Origin: Burkholderia sp. BCC0322
Lineage (GTDB): Bacteria > Pseudomonadota > Gammaproteobacteria > Burkholderiales > Burkholderiaceae
NCBI RefSeq assembly: GCF_902833045.1
Contig: NZ_CADFDU010000005.1
Coordinates: forward strand, 186,583-250,582
Direction of reading: 5' to 3'
Length of the DNA: 64,000 bases
Shown: piece after piece, positions 3,001-31,754 of the stretch
Position numbering within the stretch: the first letter of the stretch is position 1
Layout: each line of letters begins with the position of its first letter
Notes under the pieces: generated by a model
Seen by the model: the letters and a program-made list of their open reading frames with translations, nothing else
Database searches by the model: none
What the model was told of the DNA's origin: nothing
Program-made: the position numbers and the translations under genes

Positions 3001-5011
3001 ACGAGCGGCGCCGTGAAAAATTGCCAGACCGAAATGTCGAAGCAATGCGGCGCGGTTTGCGCGATCACCGACGATGCCGAGATCGAAAACTCGTCGATCT
3101 CGGCGAGCATGTGATTCAGCATGCCGGCGTGCTCGACCATCGCCCCTTTGGGCTTGCCGGTGGAGCCGGACGTGTAGATCACGTAGGCGAGGCTGTCGGG
3201 CGACACGGGGCGGCCGGGATTGGTGTCGTCGCCGGCGTCGGCGACGGCGTCGAGCGACACGACCGGCGCGATCCCGGCCAGCGCCGCGGGCAGGAGGCCG
3301 TCGCGGGTCACCACGAGGGCGGCGCCGGAATCCTCGAGAATGGTGCGGATGCGGGCCGCCGGATAGTTGGGGTCGATCGGAACATAGGCGGCGCCGCACT
3401 TCCAGACGGCAAGGATCGTCTCCATCAAGTGCGCCGACCGGTGCATGCAGATCGCGACCCGCGCGTCCGGCCCCAGTTCGGCGGCGGCCAGCAGGCGGTG
3501 CGCGATGCGGTTGGCGCGCGCGTTCAGTTCGCCCGCGCTCAGGACGCTATCCCGGTACTCGACCGCGGGCCGCTCCGGGTGGCTTGCTGCGGCCTGCTCC
3601 AGGCGATGCACCACGGTGAGCGCGGCGTCGAACGGCACGGCGGTGTCGTTGAAGGTTTCCAGCAACTGCCGGCGTTCGGCGTCGGGCAAGATCGGCACGC
3701 GGCCGAGCAGCCGGTTCGGATCGGCCGCGAACGCGTCGAGCGTCGCGGCCACGTGGCCCAGCATCCGCTGCATCGTGTCTTCATCGAAGCGCCGCGGGTC
3801 GAACGACAGTTCCATCTTCCAGTCGTCGCGCGCCGTCACCACGAACTCGAGCGGAATGTCGGCGCGGTTGTAGAGCGCCACCTCGTCGACCGCCAGCCCG
3901 TGCGCGCCATGCGTCAGGGACGCGTCGAGCGGGTAATTCATGAAGGTGATGTTGCTCTCGAACAGCGGCATCGTCGGCGGCACTTCGCTGCAGCGCTGAA
4001 TGTCGGGCAACGGGGTGGACTCGAACGGCGCGCGGGCGGCCACGCGCGCCTGGATCATCTTCAGCCACGGCACCAGCGGTTGCCTGGGGTCGACCCGCAC
4101 CCGCACCGGCACCGTGTTGATGAACAGGCCGAGCATGGTTTCGATCCCCGGCAGATCGGCGCCCCGCCCGGACACGACGGCGCCGAACACCACGTCGGTC
4201 TCCCCGCTGTAACGCGACAGCACGAGCGCCCAGGCTGCTTGCGCGAGGGTATTGAGGGTGACGTGATGGCGGGCCGCGAATTGCCGCAGGCGCGCGCTCA
4301 GGTCGGCCGACAGGTCGGCCTGCACTTGCGCGAGGCCCTGGCCGAAGCGCTCGCCCGCGTCCGCGCGCGCGGCCGTGGGCAGCGGGGTCGGCGAGCGGAA
4401 CCCTTCGAGATAGCGCGTCCAGTATTGCCGCGCGGCTTGCGGTTCGTGCTGCTGCAGCCACTGGATGTAGTCGCGATAGGGGCGCACCGGCGGGAGCGCC
4501 GGCGGCACGCCGCGCGCGAGCGCGCCATACACGTGGAAGATCTCCTCGATGACGAGCGACAGGCACCAGCCGTCGGCCAGGAGGTGATGGTGGCTCCAGC
4601 TGAACAGGCAGGCGTCGGCGGCGACGCGCGCCAGGCGGCAACGCACGAGCGGCGCGCGATCGAGCGCGAAGCCCTCCGCCAGGTCGTGGTCGAGATGCGC
4701 GCGCCACCGCGTGCGCTGTTCGTGTTCCGGCAGGTCGCGCCAGTCGTCCTGCACCCACGGCAGCGTGGCGTGCGCGTGCACGACCTGCACGGGCTTGTCG
4801 AATTCCTCCCAATGGAACGACGTGCGCATCACCGGATGCCGATCGACGAGCTGCTGCCACGCGGCATGAAACAGCGCGGGATCGAGGCTGCCGGTGATCC
4901 GGCAACTGAGCTGGTTGAAGCTGCTTCTCGTGCCGGGTTCGTGCACGGCATGGAAGAGCATCCCCTCCTGCATTGGGGAGAGCGCGTAGATATCGGCAAT
5001 GGCGGGGGATG

Positions 5012-5015
<4 letters not shown>
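1..5015 (-). CDS. ocfE: NRPS, C-A-T-E-C (partial), probable D-2,4-diaminobutyrate module
   Basis: Non-ribosomal peptide synthetase whose C-terminus lies beyond position 1; about 1671 codons are visible and the frame is open to the edge. The start is GTG at 5015, overlapping the upstream stop as GTGA, with AAGGA 8 nt before it. Domains by residue: condensation about 1-440 (HHHLLADGW near 141), adenylation about 450-960 (YTSGSTGKPKG near 619), carrier about 975-1045 (LGGDSI near 1009), epimerization about 1055-1500 (HHLVVDGVSW near 1192, GWFTS, FNYLGQ near 1405), then a second condensation domain (HHHILLDGW near 1648). By-eye alignment to GrsA gives the ten-residue pocket DIWELTADDK. Its three acidic residues suit a cationic side chain, and I recall this as a diaminobutyrate code. 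A Dab aminotransferase gene lies in the same cluster. Predicted product: a D-Dab residue, position 5 in occidiofungin-type peptides. The ocfE letter is inferred from gene order. Confidence 0.93.
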
Positions 5016-8937
<3,922 letters not shown>

Positions 8938-8950
<13 letters not shown>

Positions 8951-10554
8951 AGCACGATCTCCCTCTGCGCGTACAGGATTTCGGAAGCGATCCCCTTGGC
9001 CTTGCAGTGCGCGACGAACTGGGTGGACTGGATGTGGCTGGGCGAGTTTTCGTCGAAGGTGTTGTCGAGGAGGTGGTTCAGCCACGGCTCCTGGCCCATC
9101 GCATAGACATACGCCGCGTTGAACGGGAAATCGTCCACCAGCGCGGCGGCCTCGCCGAACTGGCAGCCCCGCGCCCGGCGCGACTGATCGATATCGCGCG
9201 GCAGCGCCTTGGGAAACAGCGGGCCGTAGACCCATGACGGCGGCGCGCCCTCGGTTTCCATCCCGACGAACAGCGTGTCGGGCTTGCCGGCGAGGCGGAA
9301 CACATGCTCGTAGAGGCGCGGGTCCAGGTTGCACGAATCGGCGATGCACAGCACCGAACGCGAGCCGAAGCGGATCATGAAGCTCTGCTTGCTGTGGATC
9401 GCCAGGTCGTTGTGTTCGCCCAGGAACGGAATGGCGGTGATGGCGCCGTTGGGCAGCTTGATTTCCTGGGCGTCCCGAACTTCCAGCACGTCGTCGAAGC
9501 CGAGCTTGCGCAACGCCAGTTCCATCGACGGATCTTGCGGAAAGCCGTCGAGATTCCGGCCGACCACCACGGTCCTGACCTTGTGGCGAAGCTGCAGCAG
9601 CGTCTCGAGGACGATGTGATCGTGATGGCTGTGCGTGATCAGCACGTAGTCGATCTGGTCCGGCAGGTCGGCGAACGTGTAGCGCGGCAGCGCGGTGTCG
9701 TAGCCGTAGCTGATCACCGGATCGATCAGGATGCTCACGCCCCGGCTCTGGATCAGCACGCACGCATGGCCGTAGTAGCGGATGCGGATGTCGTCGCCGT
9801 CGAACGAACGATCCGGTTTCGGCGCCGGCGCCGCCTCGACGAAGAACGAGCGGAACAGCGGCTCGTCCTTCTCCTCCACGCGCATCAGGTCGACGATTTT
9901 CGCGTAGCTGCCGGGCGTGTCGCGCATGCGGAACAGCGCGTCGAGCGCGCGGTCGTCGAAGGCCATGTTGCTGAACACCGTGCGCGCGTCGCTGAGCCGC
10001 GGCGTGCTGAGGATGAACGGCCGGGGCGTGTTCTCCTCGATCGCCGACAGCGCGATGCTCTGCGCATCGCGCGCATAGAACGGGCTCGCGTACAGCAAGC
10101 TTTCGAACACCCGGAAGGACGGGTTGTGGTTCAGGTCGTAGTAGATCTCGACATAGCCCTTCAACACCTCCGGAATCTCGGGGTAGAGCGGGTCCGACGC
10201 CATCCCCCGGGCCTGTTCCAGCAGCAGCGTCGAGAACGCCTTGTAAGCCTTCGCCAGTTCCAGTTGCCGGGTCGCGCGCCGGGTGGTCTGCTCGATCAGC
10301 GCGCGGATTTCGTCGACGCGCTGGCCGCCCAGGTCGAGGAACGGCCCGCCGCGCATCGCGGGATCCTTGCAGGCCGCCGCGTGCATCATCGGCGACGCGG
10401 CATAGGACTTCAGCAGCGGCAGGAACCGCTCGGCCACGTTGAGGGCGGCGGTCAGCGGCGGAAGCGTGTGATACCACGCGTACCAGCTGTTGATCAGCGG
10501 TTCGAACTGGATGTTGGGTCGCAGGTAGACCTGCGTGCTGGACGAAATAGTCAA
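8938..10554 (-). CDS. ocfG: CmlA-type non-heme diiron beta-hydroxylase acting on a carrier-bound amino acid
   Basis: Protein of 538 aa with the two-part layout of CmlA: an N-terminal helical region of about 230 residues that seats on the NRPS, and a C-terminal metallo-beta-lactamase fold. The metal motif HSHHDH lies near residue 310, with further candidate ligands in GEHNDL (Glu) and ADSCNLD (Asp), matching the CmlA pattern of three His, Asp and Glu. CmlA hydroxylates the beta-carbon of a carrier-bound aromatic amino acid. Here the next gene downstream encodes an A-T-E module, so beta-hydroxylation of carrier-bound tyrosine is the likely job. The start is TTG at 10554 with AAGGAG 6 nt upstream, 10 nt after the stop of the hybrid synthetase; the 3' end overlaps the next NRPS. 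In occidiofungin work the equivalent was described as a beta-lactamase-domain protein. A true lactamase or hydrolase role is unlikely given the N-terminal domain. Confidence 0.93.
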
Positions 10555-10564
10555 CGAAGGCTCC

Positions 10565-24018
<13,454 letters not shown>

Positions 24019-24022
<4 letters not shown>

Positions 24023-27000
24023 CGGGCGCCGATCTCCTGGGCGATCAGTTCGGAAAGGTCGTCCTCGTCGAGGTCGTCGGATGCTTCGTCGACGACCGGC
24101 GCGGGGAGCGACGGCGATAGTTCGTTGAGCACGTACTGGGCGAGCGTCTGCAGGTTCGGATAGGAAAAGAACAACGTCGCGCGAAACGGTCTGCCGAACA
24201 CCTTGGTGAGGCGATCGGTCAGCTCGAGCGCGACCAGCGAATCCAGGCCGAGATCGAGCAGCGATTGCTCGGGCGCGATGGCGTCGGGGCCGGCAAGACG
24301 CAAGGTCTCGGCCAGCATCGTCGCGAGCGTGTCGGTAATGCGCCCGACCCGCTCGCCCGGCGCGCACGCATGCAGTTGTCGCAGCAATGCCGTCTCCTGC
24401 TGCGCAGGCTGCGCGGCCGGTTGCGCCAGCTCGGAAAACAGCGCGGACCCGGCGGCCGGCGCATCGACCCGGAACAGGGTCGGCCAGTCGATCCGCGCGA
24501 CCCCGGACTGGGCGACGCCGGCCGCCATCAGCCGTTCCAGCGTCGCGATGGCCAGTTCGGGCGGCAGCGTGCCGACGCCGAGCGCGCCCAGTTGTTCGTG
24601 CGCGCGCCGCCCGTAGTCGGTGGCGGCGTGGCCGATCTCCGCCCACGGCCCCCAATTGACGCTGAGCCCCGGCTTGCCCTGCGCGCGCCGATGCTGGGCG
24701 AGGGCGTCGAGGAAGCTGTTCGCCGCCGCGTAGTTGCCCTGGCCCGGCATGGTGATCAGCGCGGCCATCGACGAGAACAGGACGAAATGGTCGAGCGGCA
24801 AGTCGGCCGTCAGCTCGTGCAGGTACCAGGCGCCGTCGGCCTTGCCGCTGCCGGCGCGATGGAAGCAGTCGATGTCCTGGCGCGTCAGCAGCGCATCGTC
24901 GAGCGCGCCGGCGAGGTGAAAGACCCCTTTGAGCGGCGGCATTGAATGCGCGATTTCATCGAGCGCCTGCGCGACGTCCTCGCGACGCGACAGGTCGGCG
25001 CGAATGAACCGCGCGCCGAGCGTGCGCAGGATGGTCTCAGCCGCGGCGGAAGGCTCGCCGCGCCCCAGCAGCACGATGTTCCCGGCGCCGTTGCCGGCGA
25101 GCCAGGACGCGAGCCGCAGGCCGAGGCCGCCGAGCCCGCCGGTCACCAGGTAGGTCGCGTCAGGCTGGAACCGGATCGGCCGGTGGCTGATGTATTCGCG
25201 ATTGTCGCGGGCGATGCGCGCGACGTAGCGCTGTTCGCGGCGAAACGCGATCATGTCTTCACGGCCGCCGGCCTGTAGGGCTTGCACGATGTGCGCCGCC
25301 GACGGCTGCGCGGGATCGAGGTCGACGAGCCCGCCCCACAGCGCCGCATGCTCGACCGCGATCGCCCGGCCCAATCCCCACAGCGGGGCCTGCGCCACCG
25401 TGATCGATTCGCCGTCCAGAACGTTCATCGCGCCCGACGTCACCAGCCACAGACGCGCCTGCCGGGCCGACGGCGCGCGTGCCGCAAGCGCGCTGACCAG
25501 GTGCAGCACGCTCGCGCTGGCACGCCGTCTCGCCGCGATGTCGGCGGGCGCGAGATCGAGACTCCACAGGTGGATGACGCCCTTCAGCGGGCGCTCGGGC
25601 GCGGGCAGTTCCGGCGTCGCGTCGGCGAAGCGCAGCGTGCACGTATCGCCCGCGCTTTCCAGCAGGGCGGACAGCTGTGCGCCCACGCCGCCACGGTCCG
25701 CGAGAATCAGCCACTCGCCCTGCGCGGAACCGCCGGTTGCCGCGTCGACGTTCGACGGTCTCCAGACGCGTTGATAAAGCAGCGCGGCGAAGTCGTGCCG
25801 CTCGACGGCGCGCCCCGCGCGTACCTGCTGCAACCGCAACGCATCGATCTCGATCAGCAGTCGCCCCGCCAGGTCGTGGACGCGGATATCGCCTTCCAGC
25901 GCGCCCTGTCCGCTCGGCTTGCGCAGCGTGGCGTGACTCCATGCATCGGTCGACGACGGCGGCTGATGGACCCGTACCGCGCCGATCGAACTGGGCAGGT
26001 ACAGGTCGCCCGACGCCAGCGCGTCCGGATCGATGGCGGCGGCGAGCACGCGGCTGCACGCGTCGAGAAAGGCGGGGTGCACCTGGTACGGCGACTGCGC
26101 CAGCGCGTCGGCCGGCAGGCTGATTTTCCCCAGCGCCTCGCCGGTCGTGCGCCAGATCTGCTGGATCGCGTTGAACACGCCGTCGATCTGCACGCCGTGC
26201 TGCCGGATTTCGCCGTTGAAGTCCGTGCCCGACGTCGTCCCGATGCAGCGGGCCTGCACCTCGGCGGCATCGAACCTCGTCGGCGCGGCGGCTCGCGTGG
26301 GGGCACACATCTCCCGTAGTCGACGCAACTGCGGAAGATTGCCGAGGATCAGCTCGACCGGCGGGCCGAAATCGAGCAGGCAGGCCACTTCATCCACGCC
26401 GATCGACGCGAGATCCCGCACCAGTTCGACGCAGGTGTCCGGCGTGCCGATGAGGCCGCGCGATTGCGCGAAGCGTTCATAGAGAAACTCGACGAACTCG
26501 TCCAGTTCGCGCGCGCCCATCGCGCGCACGTCGACCGACTGGCCGCGACTCTGCGCCAGCCCGTTCAACAGCCCGATATTGCTGCGGATGTAGTTGCAGA
26601 ACGGCACACGCGCCTGTTCGCGCGCTTGCGCCGCGTCGTCGCCGACGAACGTATGCAGCATCACGGATACGGTGCCGGCCGCCGGATCGAAGCCATGCCG
26701 TGCGCGCGCCTCGCGGTAGAGGGCGATCTTGTGCGCGAGCTGGTCCCGATCCTGGTCGAGCACGTGGGTCAGCAGGTTGGCGCCCACTTCGCCGGCGCGC
26801 ACGAACGTCTGCGGATTGCTCGCGGCCGTCACCCAGACGGGCAGTTCCGGCTGCACCGGCGTCGGATAGATGCGCAACCGCACCGGCTTGCCGACGCCGT
26901 TCGTCGCATCCAGCATGCCGCCGCGCCACAGATGCTGGACGGCGCGCATCGTCGCCAGCATGTCATCCTGCCGGCTCGCATATTTGTCCGGGGCGAACAC

Positions 27001-27342
27001 GAAGTCGTCCGGATTCCATCCGGACGCGAACGACACGCCCACGCGGCCGTTCGACAGGTTGTCCACCATCGACCATTCTTCCGCGATCCGGATCGGGTTG
27101 TGCAGCGCGGCGACCACGCTGCCTGCGACCAGCTTCACGCGTTGGGTGGCGGCGGCGAGCGCGGCGTGCAGGACGGCGGGATTCGGGTACAGCGAGCCGA
27201 ATTCGGTGAAATGGCGCTCCGGCACCCAGACGCTGGAGAACCCGTTCGCATCGGCGAAACGCGCGCTTTCCATCACGAGCTGGTACTTGTGGCCGGACAG
27301 CGCCTCTTCACTGCTGGCGAAGAACATCAGGCCGAATTTCAT
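24019..27342 (-). CDS. ocfI: LLM flavin monooxygenase-DH C-terminal half-KR-ACP polyketide synthase
   Basis: Protein of 1107 aa; ATG at 27342 overlaps the stop of the FAAL synthase (ATGA), and its own stop overlaps the hybrid start. Residues 1-330 are a luciferase-like, FMN-dependent monooxygenase of the type embedded in PKS lines (opens [15 protein letters not shown], with the conserved PERHF and FASGWNPDDF segments). Residues about 350-500 are the second hot-dog of a PKS dehydratase (HPAFLDACS near 431); the usual Gln/His four residues after the catalytic Asp is Arg. KR about 510-960 has GGLGGLG near 733, Tyr in GNYAAAN and an LDD motif, so B-type. ACP near 1033 carries GLDSL. Embedded LLM enzymes usually hydroxylate the alpha carbon of the growing chain. 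Predicted yield: an alpha,beta-dihydroxy acyl chain, i.e. hydroxyls at C6 and C7 of the final amino acid. No KS or AT here; both must come from neighbours. Confidence 0.95.
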
Positions 27343-30300
27343 GCGTGGCTCCGATCCGATTCGTGAATTTCGGCACTCGCGCACATCTGCCACGTCGCGG
27401 CGGCGCTCGCGTCCTCGATCCGGTGATAGACGGCAAACGAAAACGGCCCCCAGGACCGGCGGCTCAGCACGGTCTGCACGGTGCGCGATGCATGCGGATG
27501 CAGCGGCAACGGCGCATGCAGTGCGAGGTCCTTCAACGTCGTATGGCCGGCGGCGCCGATTTCCGACGTGGCCGCCAGCGCCATTTCCACATAGGCGGAA
27601 TAGGGCAGGACGGGCGCCCCCTTGACGCGATGACCGTCGAGAAAGGTGGTGGCCGGCGCATCGAGACGCGATTGCCAGATCCACGTGGCCGGCGCATGCG
27701 CGTGCTGCTCCATGAGGTGCCCGAGCAACGGATGCCGAGGCGCACGCGGGCTGATCCAGAAGGTGCGACGCTCGAACGGGTAGGTCGGCAGGGCGAGCCG
27801 GCGGCGCGGTGCGTCCTGTTCCACGGCATCCCAGTCGATGGACGCGCCGCGCACGTAGAGCGCGGCGAGCGTGTGCAGGATCGTGTCCCACGCGGCCGCG
27901 TGCGCGCCGATCTCGATCACGATGCCGTGGTGTCCCGCGGCACCGCCGTCCGGCGCCTGCGGCACGCCCGCCCACGAGGCGGCGGCGCGATGCCCGTCGC
28001 CGGTGCTGCTGACGGCGCCCGGCGTGATGCCGAAGGCCATCCACAGTTGCGCAAGCGCGCGCTGGAATGCCGTGAACCCGGCTTCGGCGGGCGGGAGCCC
28101 CGGCGCGTCGGATTGCTGCTGCATCAGCGCGTCGAAAGCGGGGCAGGCGGCGCGCAATTGCCGCACCGCGTCGGCGCTGCCGCCGTCGTCGGCGCAAAAG
28201 TGGAAGGTCGGCGCAGGCGGTGTCTCCGCGGGCTCGCCGGACGAAACGGCGTCCAGTTGCGAACGCAACGAATCGAGACTCGATGCGACGATGGCCGCGC
28301 GCCGCGCGAAGTGGGTGCGCCCGGTATTGGCCGTGAACGCGACATTCCGCAGGCGCACCTCGGGATGCGCGTCGAGATAGGCCGCATAGGAAGCCGCCAG
28401 CGCCTGCAATGCTTCGGGCGTGCGCGCGGAGAGCGTCACGACGCGCGCCGCGGGCGCTGCCGGGTCGGCTTCGATCTCTGCGGGCTGCGGCGCTTCGGAC
28501 AGGATCATGTGCGCGTTGGTGCCGCCGAAGCCGAACGAACTCACGCCGGCCATGCGCGGCCCGTGTTCCGAATGCCAGGGCGTGACCTGCTGCGGAATGC
28601 GGAAGGGCGTGCCGTCGAGCGCGATTTGCGGATTGATCGACCGGAAATGGAGGTTCGGCGGAATGACGCGATGGTGCAGCGCCAGGGCGGTCTTGATCAG
28701 GCTGGCGATGCCCGCCGCCGATTCCAGATGGCCGATGTTGGTCTTGACCGAACCGATCCAGCAGGGATCGTCCGGCCGACGAGCGTCGCTCAGGACGGCC
28801 GCCAGCGAGTTCAACTCGATCGGGTCGCCGAGCGGCGTTCCCGTACCGTGCGCCTCGACGAAGCCGATGTCGTGCGCGCGTACACCGGCATCGCGCAACG
28901 CACCGTGAATCACGGCCTGCTGGGCCGGGCCGTTGGGCGCGGTCAGGCCATTGCTGCGTCCATCCTGGTTCACCGCCGAGCCGCGGATCACGGCGTACAC
29001 GGTGTCGCCGTTCTCGAGCGCATCGTCGAGCCGCTTGAGCAGCACCATGCCCACGCCTTCGCCGCGTACATAACCGTTCGCCGCCGCATCGAACGCCTTG
29101 CATCGGCCATCCGGCGAGAGCATGCCCGCTTGCGTGAAGGAGGCGCTCAACTGCGGCGCCAGAATCAGGTTGACCCCGCCGGCCAGCGCCGCATCGGACT
29201 CGCCGCGCTGCAGCGCGCGGCACGCCTGATGAACCGCGACGAGCGAGGACGAACACGCGGTATCGACCGCCCAGCTCGGGCCGCGCAAATCGAGCGTGTA
29301 GGAGATGCGGTTGGCGGCGACGCTGAGCGCATTGCCCGTCGCGACATAAGGGCCGACGTCCGCGACTGCTTCCTGCGCCAGACGGATGTAGTCCGAATTG
29401 CTGATGCCCACGATGACCGCGGTGCGTCCGCCGGCGAGACGCCGGGGCGCGATCCCCGCATGCTCGAGCGTCTCCCAGGCAAGCTCCAGCAGCAGGCGCT
29501 GTTGCGGATCCATCGATTCGGCTTCGCGGGCGCTGATGCCGAAGAATGCCGCATCGAACTGATCGACCTGGTCCAGCAGCCCGGCGGGCGGAAGGCCGGC
29601 GGCGCGCTTGGTCGACGCGCCGACCGCGTCGCGGCCCTCCAGGAGAAGCTGCCAGAATGCGTCGGGATTGGCGGCGCCGGGGAAGCGGCATCCGATGCCG
29701 ACGATCGCGATATCCGCGCGTGCTGCGGCTGCGCCGGGCGCGGAGTCCGGCATCGCATTCCCGGTGCCGCACAAATGGCGCGCCAGCAGGGCAATACTCG
29801 GAAAATCGTAGACGACGGTCGGGGAAACCGGCCGCCCGAGCCAGTCCTGCAACTCGCCCGAGAGCATGATGGCGTCTTTCGAATCGAGCCCATGGACGCT
29901 GAACGGCGCGTCGGGGTCGATCTTGCCGGAATCGATTCCCGACAGACGCGCGACACGCTCGATGCACCATTGCACCAGCGCTTGCGTGTCGCGCGCCGCG
30001 GCCGTGGCGGGCGCGTCCTCCACGGAGAACGACCGCCGCCACTCGCCCGCGATCGCGAGCCCCTGTTCGTCGAGGAATGCTTGCCTGATCCGGCTGCGCT
30101 GGATTTTTCCGCTGGACGTGCGCAGGATCGTGGCGGGCTTCAACAGGATCGCCGCATACAGATCGACGTCATGCGCTTCGGCGAGCGTGCGCCGGATTTC
30201 CGTGGCGACGGCTTCCGCGTTCAGCGTGTTGAGCGCTTCGCGGCGCACTTCACAGGCGATGACGACCCGCTCCACGTTGTCGACGTTGATCGAGAAAGCC

Positions 30301-31754
30301 GCCGACGCGTTGGGCGCCAGCGCGGCATGGCTTCCCTCCGCGGATTGTTCGAGATCCTGCGGATAGTGATTGCGGCCGGCGACGATGATGAGGTCTTTCA
30401 GACGGCCGGTGACGAAGAGGTCCTCGCCATCGACGAAGCCGAGATCGCCCGTGCGCAGGTAGCGCGCGTCATCGCCATCCAGCTTCGCGAGAAAGGTGTG
30501 CTCCGTTTCCTCGACGCGGTTCCAGTAGCCGACGCCGACGCTCGGGCCGGTCAGCCAGATCTCGCCGATCCGGCCGGGCGCGCAGCGCTCGCCGGTATCC
30601 GGATTCACGATCTGCAGGCGGTGCTCCGCCCAGGTCCGGCCGCATGAGACCAGCGCGTGGCGCTTGCCGTGGTCGCTTCTCGTCGCCACGCCTTGCGCCA
30701 GGCCGTCGGCGTCGTAGTCCGCCACGCGCGGCAGCGCGCGCGCCGGCTGACCGGAGATGAACAAGGTCGCCTCGGCCATGCCGTAGACCGGGCGCATGGT
30801 GTGCGCGTGGAAGCCGCATGTGGCGAATGCGTGCGAAAAACGCGCCACCGACTCCGCGCGCACCGGTTCCGCGCCGTTGAATGCCACCCGCCAGCTGCTC
30901 AGGTCCAGCTGCGCGCGAGACGCGTCGGAGATCTTGCGCGCGCACAGGTCGTACGCGAAATCCGGCGCGGCGCAATGCGTGCCGCGATACTTCGTGATGG
31001 CCTGCAGCCAGCGGATGGGTTTCTGCACGAACGCCGCGGGCGCCATCAGCACCGACAGCACGCCGAGGTAGATCGGCAGCAGCACCTTCCCGAAGAAGCC
31101 CATGTCGTGAAACACCGGGAGCCAGCTGACGAACACCGCCGACGCATCGGCATCGCTCGCCTCGGCGATGACCGCCATATTGCTCAGGATGTTCGCGTGG
31201 CTGATCATCACGCCTTTGGGCGTGCCGGTGGAGCCTGACGTGTATTGCAGAAGCGCCAGCGTCTGCGGCGTGATTGCCGGTGCGCGCCATTGTTCGGCCG
31301 GTGCGTCGAAGCGCTGGTCCGTCGCCAGGATCTTCAGTTCCAGCGTGTCGGAATAGCCGTCCGCGTGATGCGCGATACCGTCGAGCGTGGCGGCGTCGGT
31401 CAGCGCGACGACCGGCGTGGCGTCGGCGACGATGGCCTTGAGACGATCGGCGGGACGATGCCTGCGCGGGGGATAGGCCGGTACGCCGATCAGGCCCGCG
31501 TACAGGCAACCCACCCATGCGCAGATGAATTCCAGCCCGGGCGGATAGACCAGCAGGACGCGATCGCCTGGTTGCGCGATGTCCTGCAGCCTGGCGGCGA
31601 TGCCGCGAGCCCGCTGGTCCAGGTCGCCGAACGTGAGTCGAGTCAGTTCCGCTTCGCCGTTCTCGAGAAAAACGAATGCCGTCTTCTCCGCTTCGACCTT
31701 GCCGCGAAACAACAAAATTTCTGTAACAGTCCTGAATTTTGTATCGGGAAGCAT
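27339..31754 (-). CDS. ocfJ: FAAL-ACP-KS-AT remnant-DH N-terminal half, chain-initiating polyketide synthase
   Basis: Protein of 1471 aa that starts the assembly line. Residues 1-585 are a fatty acyl-AMP ligase ([11 protein letters not shown] near 173, YPPRR near 110, [25 protein letters not shown]), which activates a free fatty acid and loads it on the ACP near 624 (HGLDSKD). KS about 682-1100 is intact ([29 protein letters not shown]). Residues about 1110-1330 are a collapsed acyltransferase remnant lacking GHSxG. From 1342 to the end lies only the N-terminal hot-dog of a dehydratase (HxxxGxxxxP seen as [10 protein letters not shown] near 1383); the other half is in the next gene, after a monooxygenase. 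I chose ATG 31754 because GAAGG lies about 7 nt upstream and the FAAL fold begins right after; a TTG at 31817 has no such site. A C12 acid would give the C18 amino acid known from occidiofungin, which is inference. Confidence 0.95.

Follow-up and report, generated by a model that had tools for sequence, protein, structure and literature searches.

What does a polyketide synthase dehydratase (DH) domain do when it is distributed over two consecutive genes, with a flavin monooxygenase between its halves? This question is raised by a locus of Burkholderia sp. BCC0322, which was analyzed in a window of 64,000 nucleotides (contig NZ_CADFDU010000005.1, positions 186,583 to 250,582; coordinates below are those of the window, and all features lie on the minus strand). 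Gene order and gene lengths matched the cluster of the antifungal occidiofungin (ocf) as given in the ocf table of PMC9494966. The comparison covered ocfG, ocfH, ocfI, ocfJ, ocfK, ocfM, and ocfN; the lengths of ocfI (3324 nt, as in MS14), ocfK (987 nt), ocfM (951 nt), ocfN (720 nt), and ocfG (1617 nt) agreed, and small differences were found for ocfJ (4416 vs. 4428 nt) and ocfH (13458 vs. 13410 nt). In that table, OcfI is listed as a flavin-dependent monooxygenase only and OcfJ as an NRP synthetase.

Domain organization of OcfJ and OcfI

According to domain search, OcfJ (27339..31754, from ATG) is organized as FAAL-ACP-KS-(AT remnant)-first DH hot-dog. The fatty acyl-AMP ligase (FAAL) domain (30063..31694) matched the AMP-binding family PF00501 (E 5e-69), a DIP2-like AMP domain, and the NCBIfam fatty-acid--AMP ligase models; the module 1 ketosynthase (28644..29714) matched PF00109/PF02801. 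Spacing revealed an acyltransferase remnant (27888..28220) which has lost its core and retained the KS-AT and post-AT linkers; a Pfam search of OcfJ gave no Acyl_transf_1 match at E 0.001. The first hot-dog (DHn, 27420..27734) covered the entire profile of PKS_DH_N (PF21089, E 7e-22, positions 1-103 of 103), and OcfJ ends 6 amino acids beyond the end of this profile.

The ocfJ stop and the ocfI start share the 4 bp ATGA at 27339..27342. OcfI (24019..27342) begins at once with a complete luciferase-like FMN monooxygenase (LLM) domain of the MupA/Atu3671 family (26314..27342; TIGR04020, 491.5 bits at a curated cut-off of 244.45, model positions 1-341 of 341), and only behind it follows the second hot-dog (DHc, 25813..26277; PS-DH PF14765, E 3e-27, profile 3-162 of 166). 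The module 1 ketoreductase (KR, 24637..25158; PF08659, 2.5e-58) and ACP (24130..24330; PF00550) complete the protein. The downstream gene product OcfH (10565..24022) contains module 2 (KS-AT remnant-KR-ACP) and module 3 (KS-AT-ACP-aminotransferase), followed by C-A-PCP-C.

In the window, the two hot-dogs are spread over two genes instead of one chain, and the DH occupies its usual place in the module, between the post-AT linker and the KR. Residues 8-132 of the CurK DH matched the first half and residues 143-290 the second, which places the cut in the inter-hot-dog linker. The initial annotation had described a FAAL synthase ending in a first hot-dog, a 4-bp overlap, an LLM preceding the second hot-dog, and a break at the natural linker, all of which were confirmed; the feature was also found within the span it had given (25870..27740), except that the second hot-dog runs on to about 25813.

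Catalytic motifs and product chemistry

DH domains usually carry HxxxGxxxxP with the catalytic His in the first hot-dog and DxxxQ/H in the second. The former motif is complete in DHn, as had been noted before (catalytic His codon 27632-27630). DHc carries HPAFLDACSR, with the Asp codon at 26064-26062 and, also as previously recognized, Arg four residues after this Asp (codon 26052-26050). DACSR, which departs from DxxxQ/H, occurred in all 15 loci of the Burkholderia group (the window, seven named loci, and seven from the nearest genus sampled); there, catalytic His and Asp are kept and the replacement of Gln/His by Arg is the sole change. Outside this group, His or Asp is missing in some split loci, and the full His/Asp/Gln triad was present in 10 of the 35 split loci among the matches listed. 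Judged by these motifs, loss of catalysis is not universal among the relatives, because these ten retain all three residues.

The reassembled DH might still be a working dehydratase, at least in some lineages, acting on the module 1 intermediate or on an alpha,beta-diol, from which loss of water would lead via an enol to an alpha-keto acyl chain. The intact His and Asp in the window, the ten complete triads, and the described dehydration by the split cremimycin DH once artificially joined favor this explanation. However, according to published NMR data the fatty residue of occidiofungin bears oxygen at C5, C6, and C7, and no double bond is assigned in it, so that the chain retains the C6 and C7 oxygens; furthermore, Arg follows at Asp+4 in 15/15 Burkholderia-group loci, and His or Asp is gone in some others. 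Product chemistry thus argues against dehydratase activity of the window DH, and we consider this explanation unlikely. The initial annotation had named a double bond made by this module as evidence against docking halves; because NMR shows three adjacent oxygens and a double bond was not assigned, the product provides no such evidence.

Occurrence of the split gene in other bacteria

The relatives examined were the best 80 of 212, supplemented by phylum samples with matches at E 1e-150 only. Among the matches listed, the gene was cut at the identical place in 35 of 35 distinct loci with both flanks visible, which excludes chance. L024, a near copy of L023, and duplicate entries for one locus were removed from the counts, and L012, whose contig begins at the LLM, and L120, whose contig ends, stand outside the 35. 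These loci span four named phyla and one unplaced MAG; the same cut is present in at least four bacterial phyla, and Burkholderia, Cyanobacteriota, Bacteroidota, and Chloroflexota share the arrangement. A recent capture in Burkholderia was thereby ruled out. Of the earlier proposal that an LLM gene was captured into a DH domain, the position of the LLM between the halves was upheld, and the notion of a local event was replaced by that of an old arrangement spread over four named phyla.

For the cyanobacterial loci we considered hassallidin as the product, since it bears an alpha,beta-dihydroxy acid. This assignment was left unproven: when plasmids were searched with the L014 protein at E 1e-100, five records were listed, and the hassallidin plasmids given in PMC8600333 were not among them.

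A single stop separates two in-register frames in L081 and in five loci from Chloroflexota (L020, L117-L120), and the split might be merely formal, with frameshifting or read-through producing one polypeptide. However, relative frames and the spacing from stop to LLM (-4 to 817 nt) vary by lineage, a GGAGGA-type site lies a few bases upstream of a GTG start in L020, L117, L119, and L120, and the window junction is an ordinary ATGA overlap into another frame, of the same kind as at ocfI/ocfH. A formal split is therefore very improbable.

In L031 the LLM-KR-ACP gene lacks DHc, and no upstream partner gene was found on the same strand. The second half of L026 scored 22.4 bits, under the Pfam cut-off of 23.7. 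Together with the motif erosion in some lineages, the latter would fit halves that are decaying, functionless remnants of an LLM gene insertion into a DH. Yet L026 has a complete DH upstream of its additional, His-less first half, all 35 split loci among the matches listed, which come from four named phyla and one MAG, have kept the halves, and dN/dS indicated purifying selection on both of them. Hence, functionless remnants appear quite unlikely.

Single-gene modules of the same LLM clade

Modules encoded by one ORF and belonging to the same LLM clade lacked both DH halves in nine of nine cases among the matches listed (Pfam was run on four). Their LLM occupies the same position as in the split modules, and in the tree they nest within the split LLM clade; the loss of the halves upon fusion represents one or two events only, all in Verrucomicrobiota. 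For the LLM tree, 66 "other" rows were thinned to 32 and six near copies were left out; a second tree had 45 rows. In L028, and for the first of the LLMs in L030, the start lies close to a contig end; both were scored as one-ORF modules because the LLM stands in one ORF with a KS linker or AT. The second LLM of L008 (17265), one-ORF and DH-less, belongs to a different LLM clade and stands outside the nine; LLMs from NRPS modules, and those that follow an aminotransferase or an ACP, have no DH position and were excluded as other types. One-chain DHn-LLM-DHc proteins were not found among the domain-mapped loci (best 80 of 212 relatives and phylum samples; L123-L130 lie outside this map, with L123 and L126 identical by coordinates to L019 and L026).

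These modules bear on the possibility that the halves are structural spacers, which set the distance between LLM and KR or serve module dimerization, with docking as a side effect. The usual place of the DH between post-AT linker and KR and the selection on both halves agree with such a role. But the spacer is dispensable in a continuous chain, because the nine one-ORF modules do without it, and we regard this role as rather unlikely.

Structure model of a relative

The two corresponding segments of a relative were modelled with AlphaFold and formed one DH fold from which the LLM is looped out. The curacin CurF and CurK DHs were the nearest solved folds, and the window halves match both in order. 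Superposition gave 2.0 Å over 274/278 residues for the CurF DH and 2.0-2.1 Å for CurF/CurK; these values come from another species, whose two segments were folded as a single chain (pTM 0.57), and AlphaFold may recall the known DH fold. Complementary DH halves, as anticipated by the initial annotation, were thus obtained for the relative in single-chain form. CurF and CurK DHs themselves are continuous domains with Gln/His at Asp+4.

Proposed function of the module

The domain anatomy, its recurrence, the selection on the halves, the fold modelled for a relative, and the agreement with the published product are computational results, and on this basis the locus probably encodes an alpha-hydroxylating module in which non-dehydrating DH halves dock OcfJ and OcfI. 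Together, these proteins would make up extension module 1 of the line that builds the fatty amino acid of occidiofungin. The C-terminal hot-dog of OcfJ and the internal hot-dog of OcfI would associate into one double-hot-dog DH, as modelled for the relative, which would carry out no dehydration in the ocf cluster and would mainly join the two proteins and set the LLM beside the module ACP. With reduced FMN and O2, the LLM would hydroxylate the alpha carbon of the beta-ketoacyl-ACP, as we infer from the product, and the KR would reduce the beta-keto group after this step. Both would yield C6-OH and C7-O, the latter later bearing xylose; module 2 (KS-KR) would supply C5-OH and module 3 (KS-AT-aminotransferase) C3-NH2, and a C12 starter with three extensions would give the C18 chain.

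The recurrence of the same cut suggests that the halves are now mainly a clip joining two proteins. At the level of sequence, the association of split genes with DH halves and the purifying selection on both halves also suggest docking. Against this proposal speak the intact catalytic His and Asp in Burkholderia, the ten loci with a full triad, the activity of the cremimycin DH once joined, the small number of fusion events behind the loss of the halves, the dN/dS of DHn, which was the highest (0.36) of the seven domains tested, and the L031 gene with neither DHc nor an upstream partner.

Relation to known systems

A split DH as such is already known: in cremimycin, the DH is divided between the consecutive proteins CmiP3 and CmiP2 and is active when joined. 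In the window, too, consecutive proteins share the DH, with the cut in the inter-hot-dog linker. In contrast, the description of cremimycin makes no mention of an LLM at its cut, its DH dehydrates when joined, and it belongs to a macrolactam starter line. The entry 6K97 "Fusion DH" is presumably the fused form of this split DH. CmiP2 begins directly with the second hot-dog, whereas OcfI places a complete LLM before it. PKS proteins are known to dock through terminal elements such as short helices or four-helix bundles.

In PuwE (puwainaphycin synthetase, 6KET), the monooxygenase (OX) domain is an LLM that follows an aminotransferase within a single chain, and its description includes no DH. 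MupA, which gave its name to the TIGR04020 family of the OcfI LLM, was demonstrated in vitro to alpha-hydroxylate a beta-ketoacyl-ACP (PMC10953402). Unlike the LLM of OcfI, MupA is freestanding and belongs to the mupirocin alpha-hydroxylation bimodule, at a boundary between modules that has a KS0; its description mentions no DH halves. An LLM at a DH split was found nowhere in the literature searched, with subscription papers outside the search.

There is about an even chance that the double-hot-dog DH represents a two-part protein clip, kept in split LLM modules and lost on fusion, a type of docking device absent from the literature searched, which occurs in at least four phyla and has an alpha-hydroxylating enzyme where its two parts meet. 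The published labels of OcfI and OcfJ miss the DH halves. If the proposal is true, the partners would be joined by one full domain of which each holds a part, with the oxygenase between these parts; this predicts a portable means of linking two proteins and introducing an alpha-hydroxyl at the same time, and the origin of the C6-OH and C7-O of occidiofungin becomes testable.

Results

The occidiofungin (ocf) cluster is present in the window, as judged from ORF lengths against the table in PMC9494966, which in the part consulted gives matching values for ocfI (3324), ocfK (987), ocfM (951), ocfN (720) and ocfG (1617). According to domain profiles, OcfJ (27339-31754, minus strand) comprises a FAAL domain at its N-terminal start (30063-31694), an ACP, a KS, a post-KS stretch without AT core and a complete N-terminal dehydratase (DH) hot-dog (PF21089; DHn); OcfI (24019-27342, minus strand) comprises a complete luciferase-like monooxygenase (LLM), a complete C-terminal DH hot-dog (PF14765; DHc), a KR and an ACP. 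The LLM, which opens OcfI, belongs to the MupA/Atu3671 family (491 bits, cut-off 244), and the two genes share a 4-bp ATGA overlap. Thus, a DH divided over two genes with an LLM between its halves, as proposed in the initial annotation, was recovered. The break was also correctly placed between the hot-dogs, since the window halves matched consecutive, non-overlapping parts of the DH domains of CurK (8-132 and 143-290) and CurF (3-128 and 131-281); they very probably form one DH. Motif reading confirmed an intact HxxxGxxxxP and Asp as well as Arg in place of Gln/His four residues past this Asp. The ocfI/ocfH junction (24019-24022) is an ATGA overlap, too; here, OcfI ends and OcfH begins with acidic, helical-looking tails that may resemble ordinary docking segments.

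One genome scan supplied 80 of the relatives' loci (L numbers), namely those of the best 80 among 212 relatives; others were taken from plasmid records and from searches for which 1697 genomes were counted. Matches to the LLM-bearing query are rare, with 10 of 61 among relatives of the closest available genome (E 1e-60) and, at E 1e-150, 9/386 cyanobacterial, 2/345 Bacteroidota, 5/301 Chloroflexota, 1/398 Pseudomonadota and 3/194 Verrucomicrobiota genomes sampled, not every match being a split-DH module. In the domain maps, one gene carries KS-(AT)-DHn and the following one LLM-DHc, usually with a KR behind it, and the gene boundary separates DHn from LLM. Including the window, 37 distinct split loci were obtained; DHn and LLM-DHc lay in different genes in all 35 with both flanks visible, L012 starting and L120 ending at a contig end. 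Hosts were Burkholderia, cyanobacteria, Bacteroidota (Lewinella, Fibrella), Chloroflexota (a Ktedonobacteria genome and sampled relatives) and one unplaced MAG harboring both L019 and L026. Across 36 loci, the first protein ended a median of 6 aa (0-34) past the hot-dog profile. Relative frame at the junction varied and spacing ranged from -4 to 817 nt; therefore, the split has outlived much change at this site. In L020, L117, L119 and L120 (Chloroflexota) the LLM gene starts with GTG behind a GGAGGA-type site of its own. In L020, L117-L120 and L081 the DHn and LLM genes are in one frame, separated by a single stop.

In nine modules of the same LLM clade, all from Verrucomicrobiota (eight named Opitutae or Opitutaceae), the LLM occupies the DH position in one ORF with the upstream module parts, and the DH halves are lacking. 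Five one-ORF proteins, including four from this clade, were searched with Pfam, and none gave a hit to a DH model. Where measurable, the distance from post-AT linker to LLM was 19-51 aa for six of these nine modules and 134-233 aa for split loci; that from LLM to KR was 212-281 aa (9/9) as compared to 377-469 in measurable split loci, except for the longer L015, L019 and L081 (547-844). In a tree of 45 rows the nine modules fall inside the split-DH rows. Constraining the split rows to one clade cost 52.6 log-likelihood units (p-AU 1.4e-4), and one clade for the nine was not rejected (p 0.22). This nesting makes the split state the older one, with one or two losses of both halves where the chain turned continuous.

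Two loci bear on this contrast. L026 is telling: in the region 4915-13540, a protein with a complete DH and intact motifs carries an extra DHn lacking the His at its very C-terminal end, and the next gene encodes an LLM with a weak DHc (22 bits). L031, with an LLM-KR-ACP gene that lacks DHc, counts against this contrast, though an upstream partner is also missing on its strand. L025, L032 and L116 have LLM genes that stand by themselves, encode about 360 aa and are related to PKS LLMs; that of L032 groups in the PKS-LLM clade and that of L025 adjoins PKS/NRPS genes.

In eight Burkholderia sequences, dN/dS was 0.36 for DHn, 0.24 for DHc, 0.14 for LLM, 0.24 for KS, 0.27 for psi-KR, 0.25 for KR and 0.32 for ACP; the halves are therefore maintained, DHn least strictly. 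Catalytic His was found in 30 of 36 first halves (Tyr in five, Asn in one), catalytic Asp in 28 of 36 second halves (Glu in seven, His in one). The Asp+4 position held Gln in 17, Arg in 15 (the window and the rest of the Burkholderia group), Leu in three and Glu in one. His, Asp and Gln occurred together in 10/35 loci.

Discussion

OcfJ has one KS and OcfH two, therefore three extensions would lead from a C12 starter to C18; this count differs from the C18:0 FAAL substrate which a review entry marks as hypothesis (PMC11837247, relevant entry). Furthermore, a domain profile search at E 0.001 detected no condensation domain in OcfJ, which departs from the Asn1-incorporating NRP synthetase described in the section consulted of PMC9494966. 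The NMR data consulted in PMC10897925 place nitrogen on C3, hydroxyls on C5 and C6 and xylose-bearing oxygen on C7 (3R,5R,6S,7S), with no double bond assigned in the fatty residue. C7-O would derive from the module 1 KR, C6-OH from the LLM acting at the alpha carbon of the first extension, C5-OH from the module 2 KR and C3-N from the module 3 aminotransferase. MupA, in the part of PMC10953402 consulted, accepts a beta-keto, not a beta-hydroxy, thioester; therefore, the LLM should precede the KR. Dehydration is probably absent from this cluster. The AT cores of modules 1 (27888-28220) and 2 (within 10565-24022) are missing or eroded, module 2 showing GHGIG where GHSxG is expected; only the module 3 AT looks intact (GHSVG). 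L001 and L007 share the AT-region spacing of the window. Loading of all three ACPs may fall to the module 3 AT or to a trans AT.

In cremimycin biosynthesis a DH is divided over CmiP3 and CmiP2 and is active once artificially joined (PMC11284099, as excerpted); MupA, OocM and PuwE are, in the excerpts consulted, known or proposed LLM alpha-hydroxylases. The open literature searched yielded no description of this combination of an LLM at a DH cut with conservation of the cut across four phyla.

The initial annotation suggested that the halves are docking scaffolds rather than a dehydratase. Its observation stands and its reading does so in part: the halves are under constraint, but loss of catalysis is not general, given the triad in 10/35 loci. 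Judged from these residue counts, DH catalysis looks dispensable in some lineages and may persist in others. The absence of DH halves from continuous-chain modules as compared to their retention in split ones points, at the sequence level, to a docking role, and we propose, with moderate confidence, that docking is the main role of the halves.
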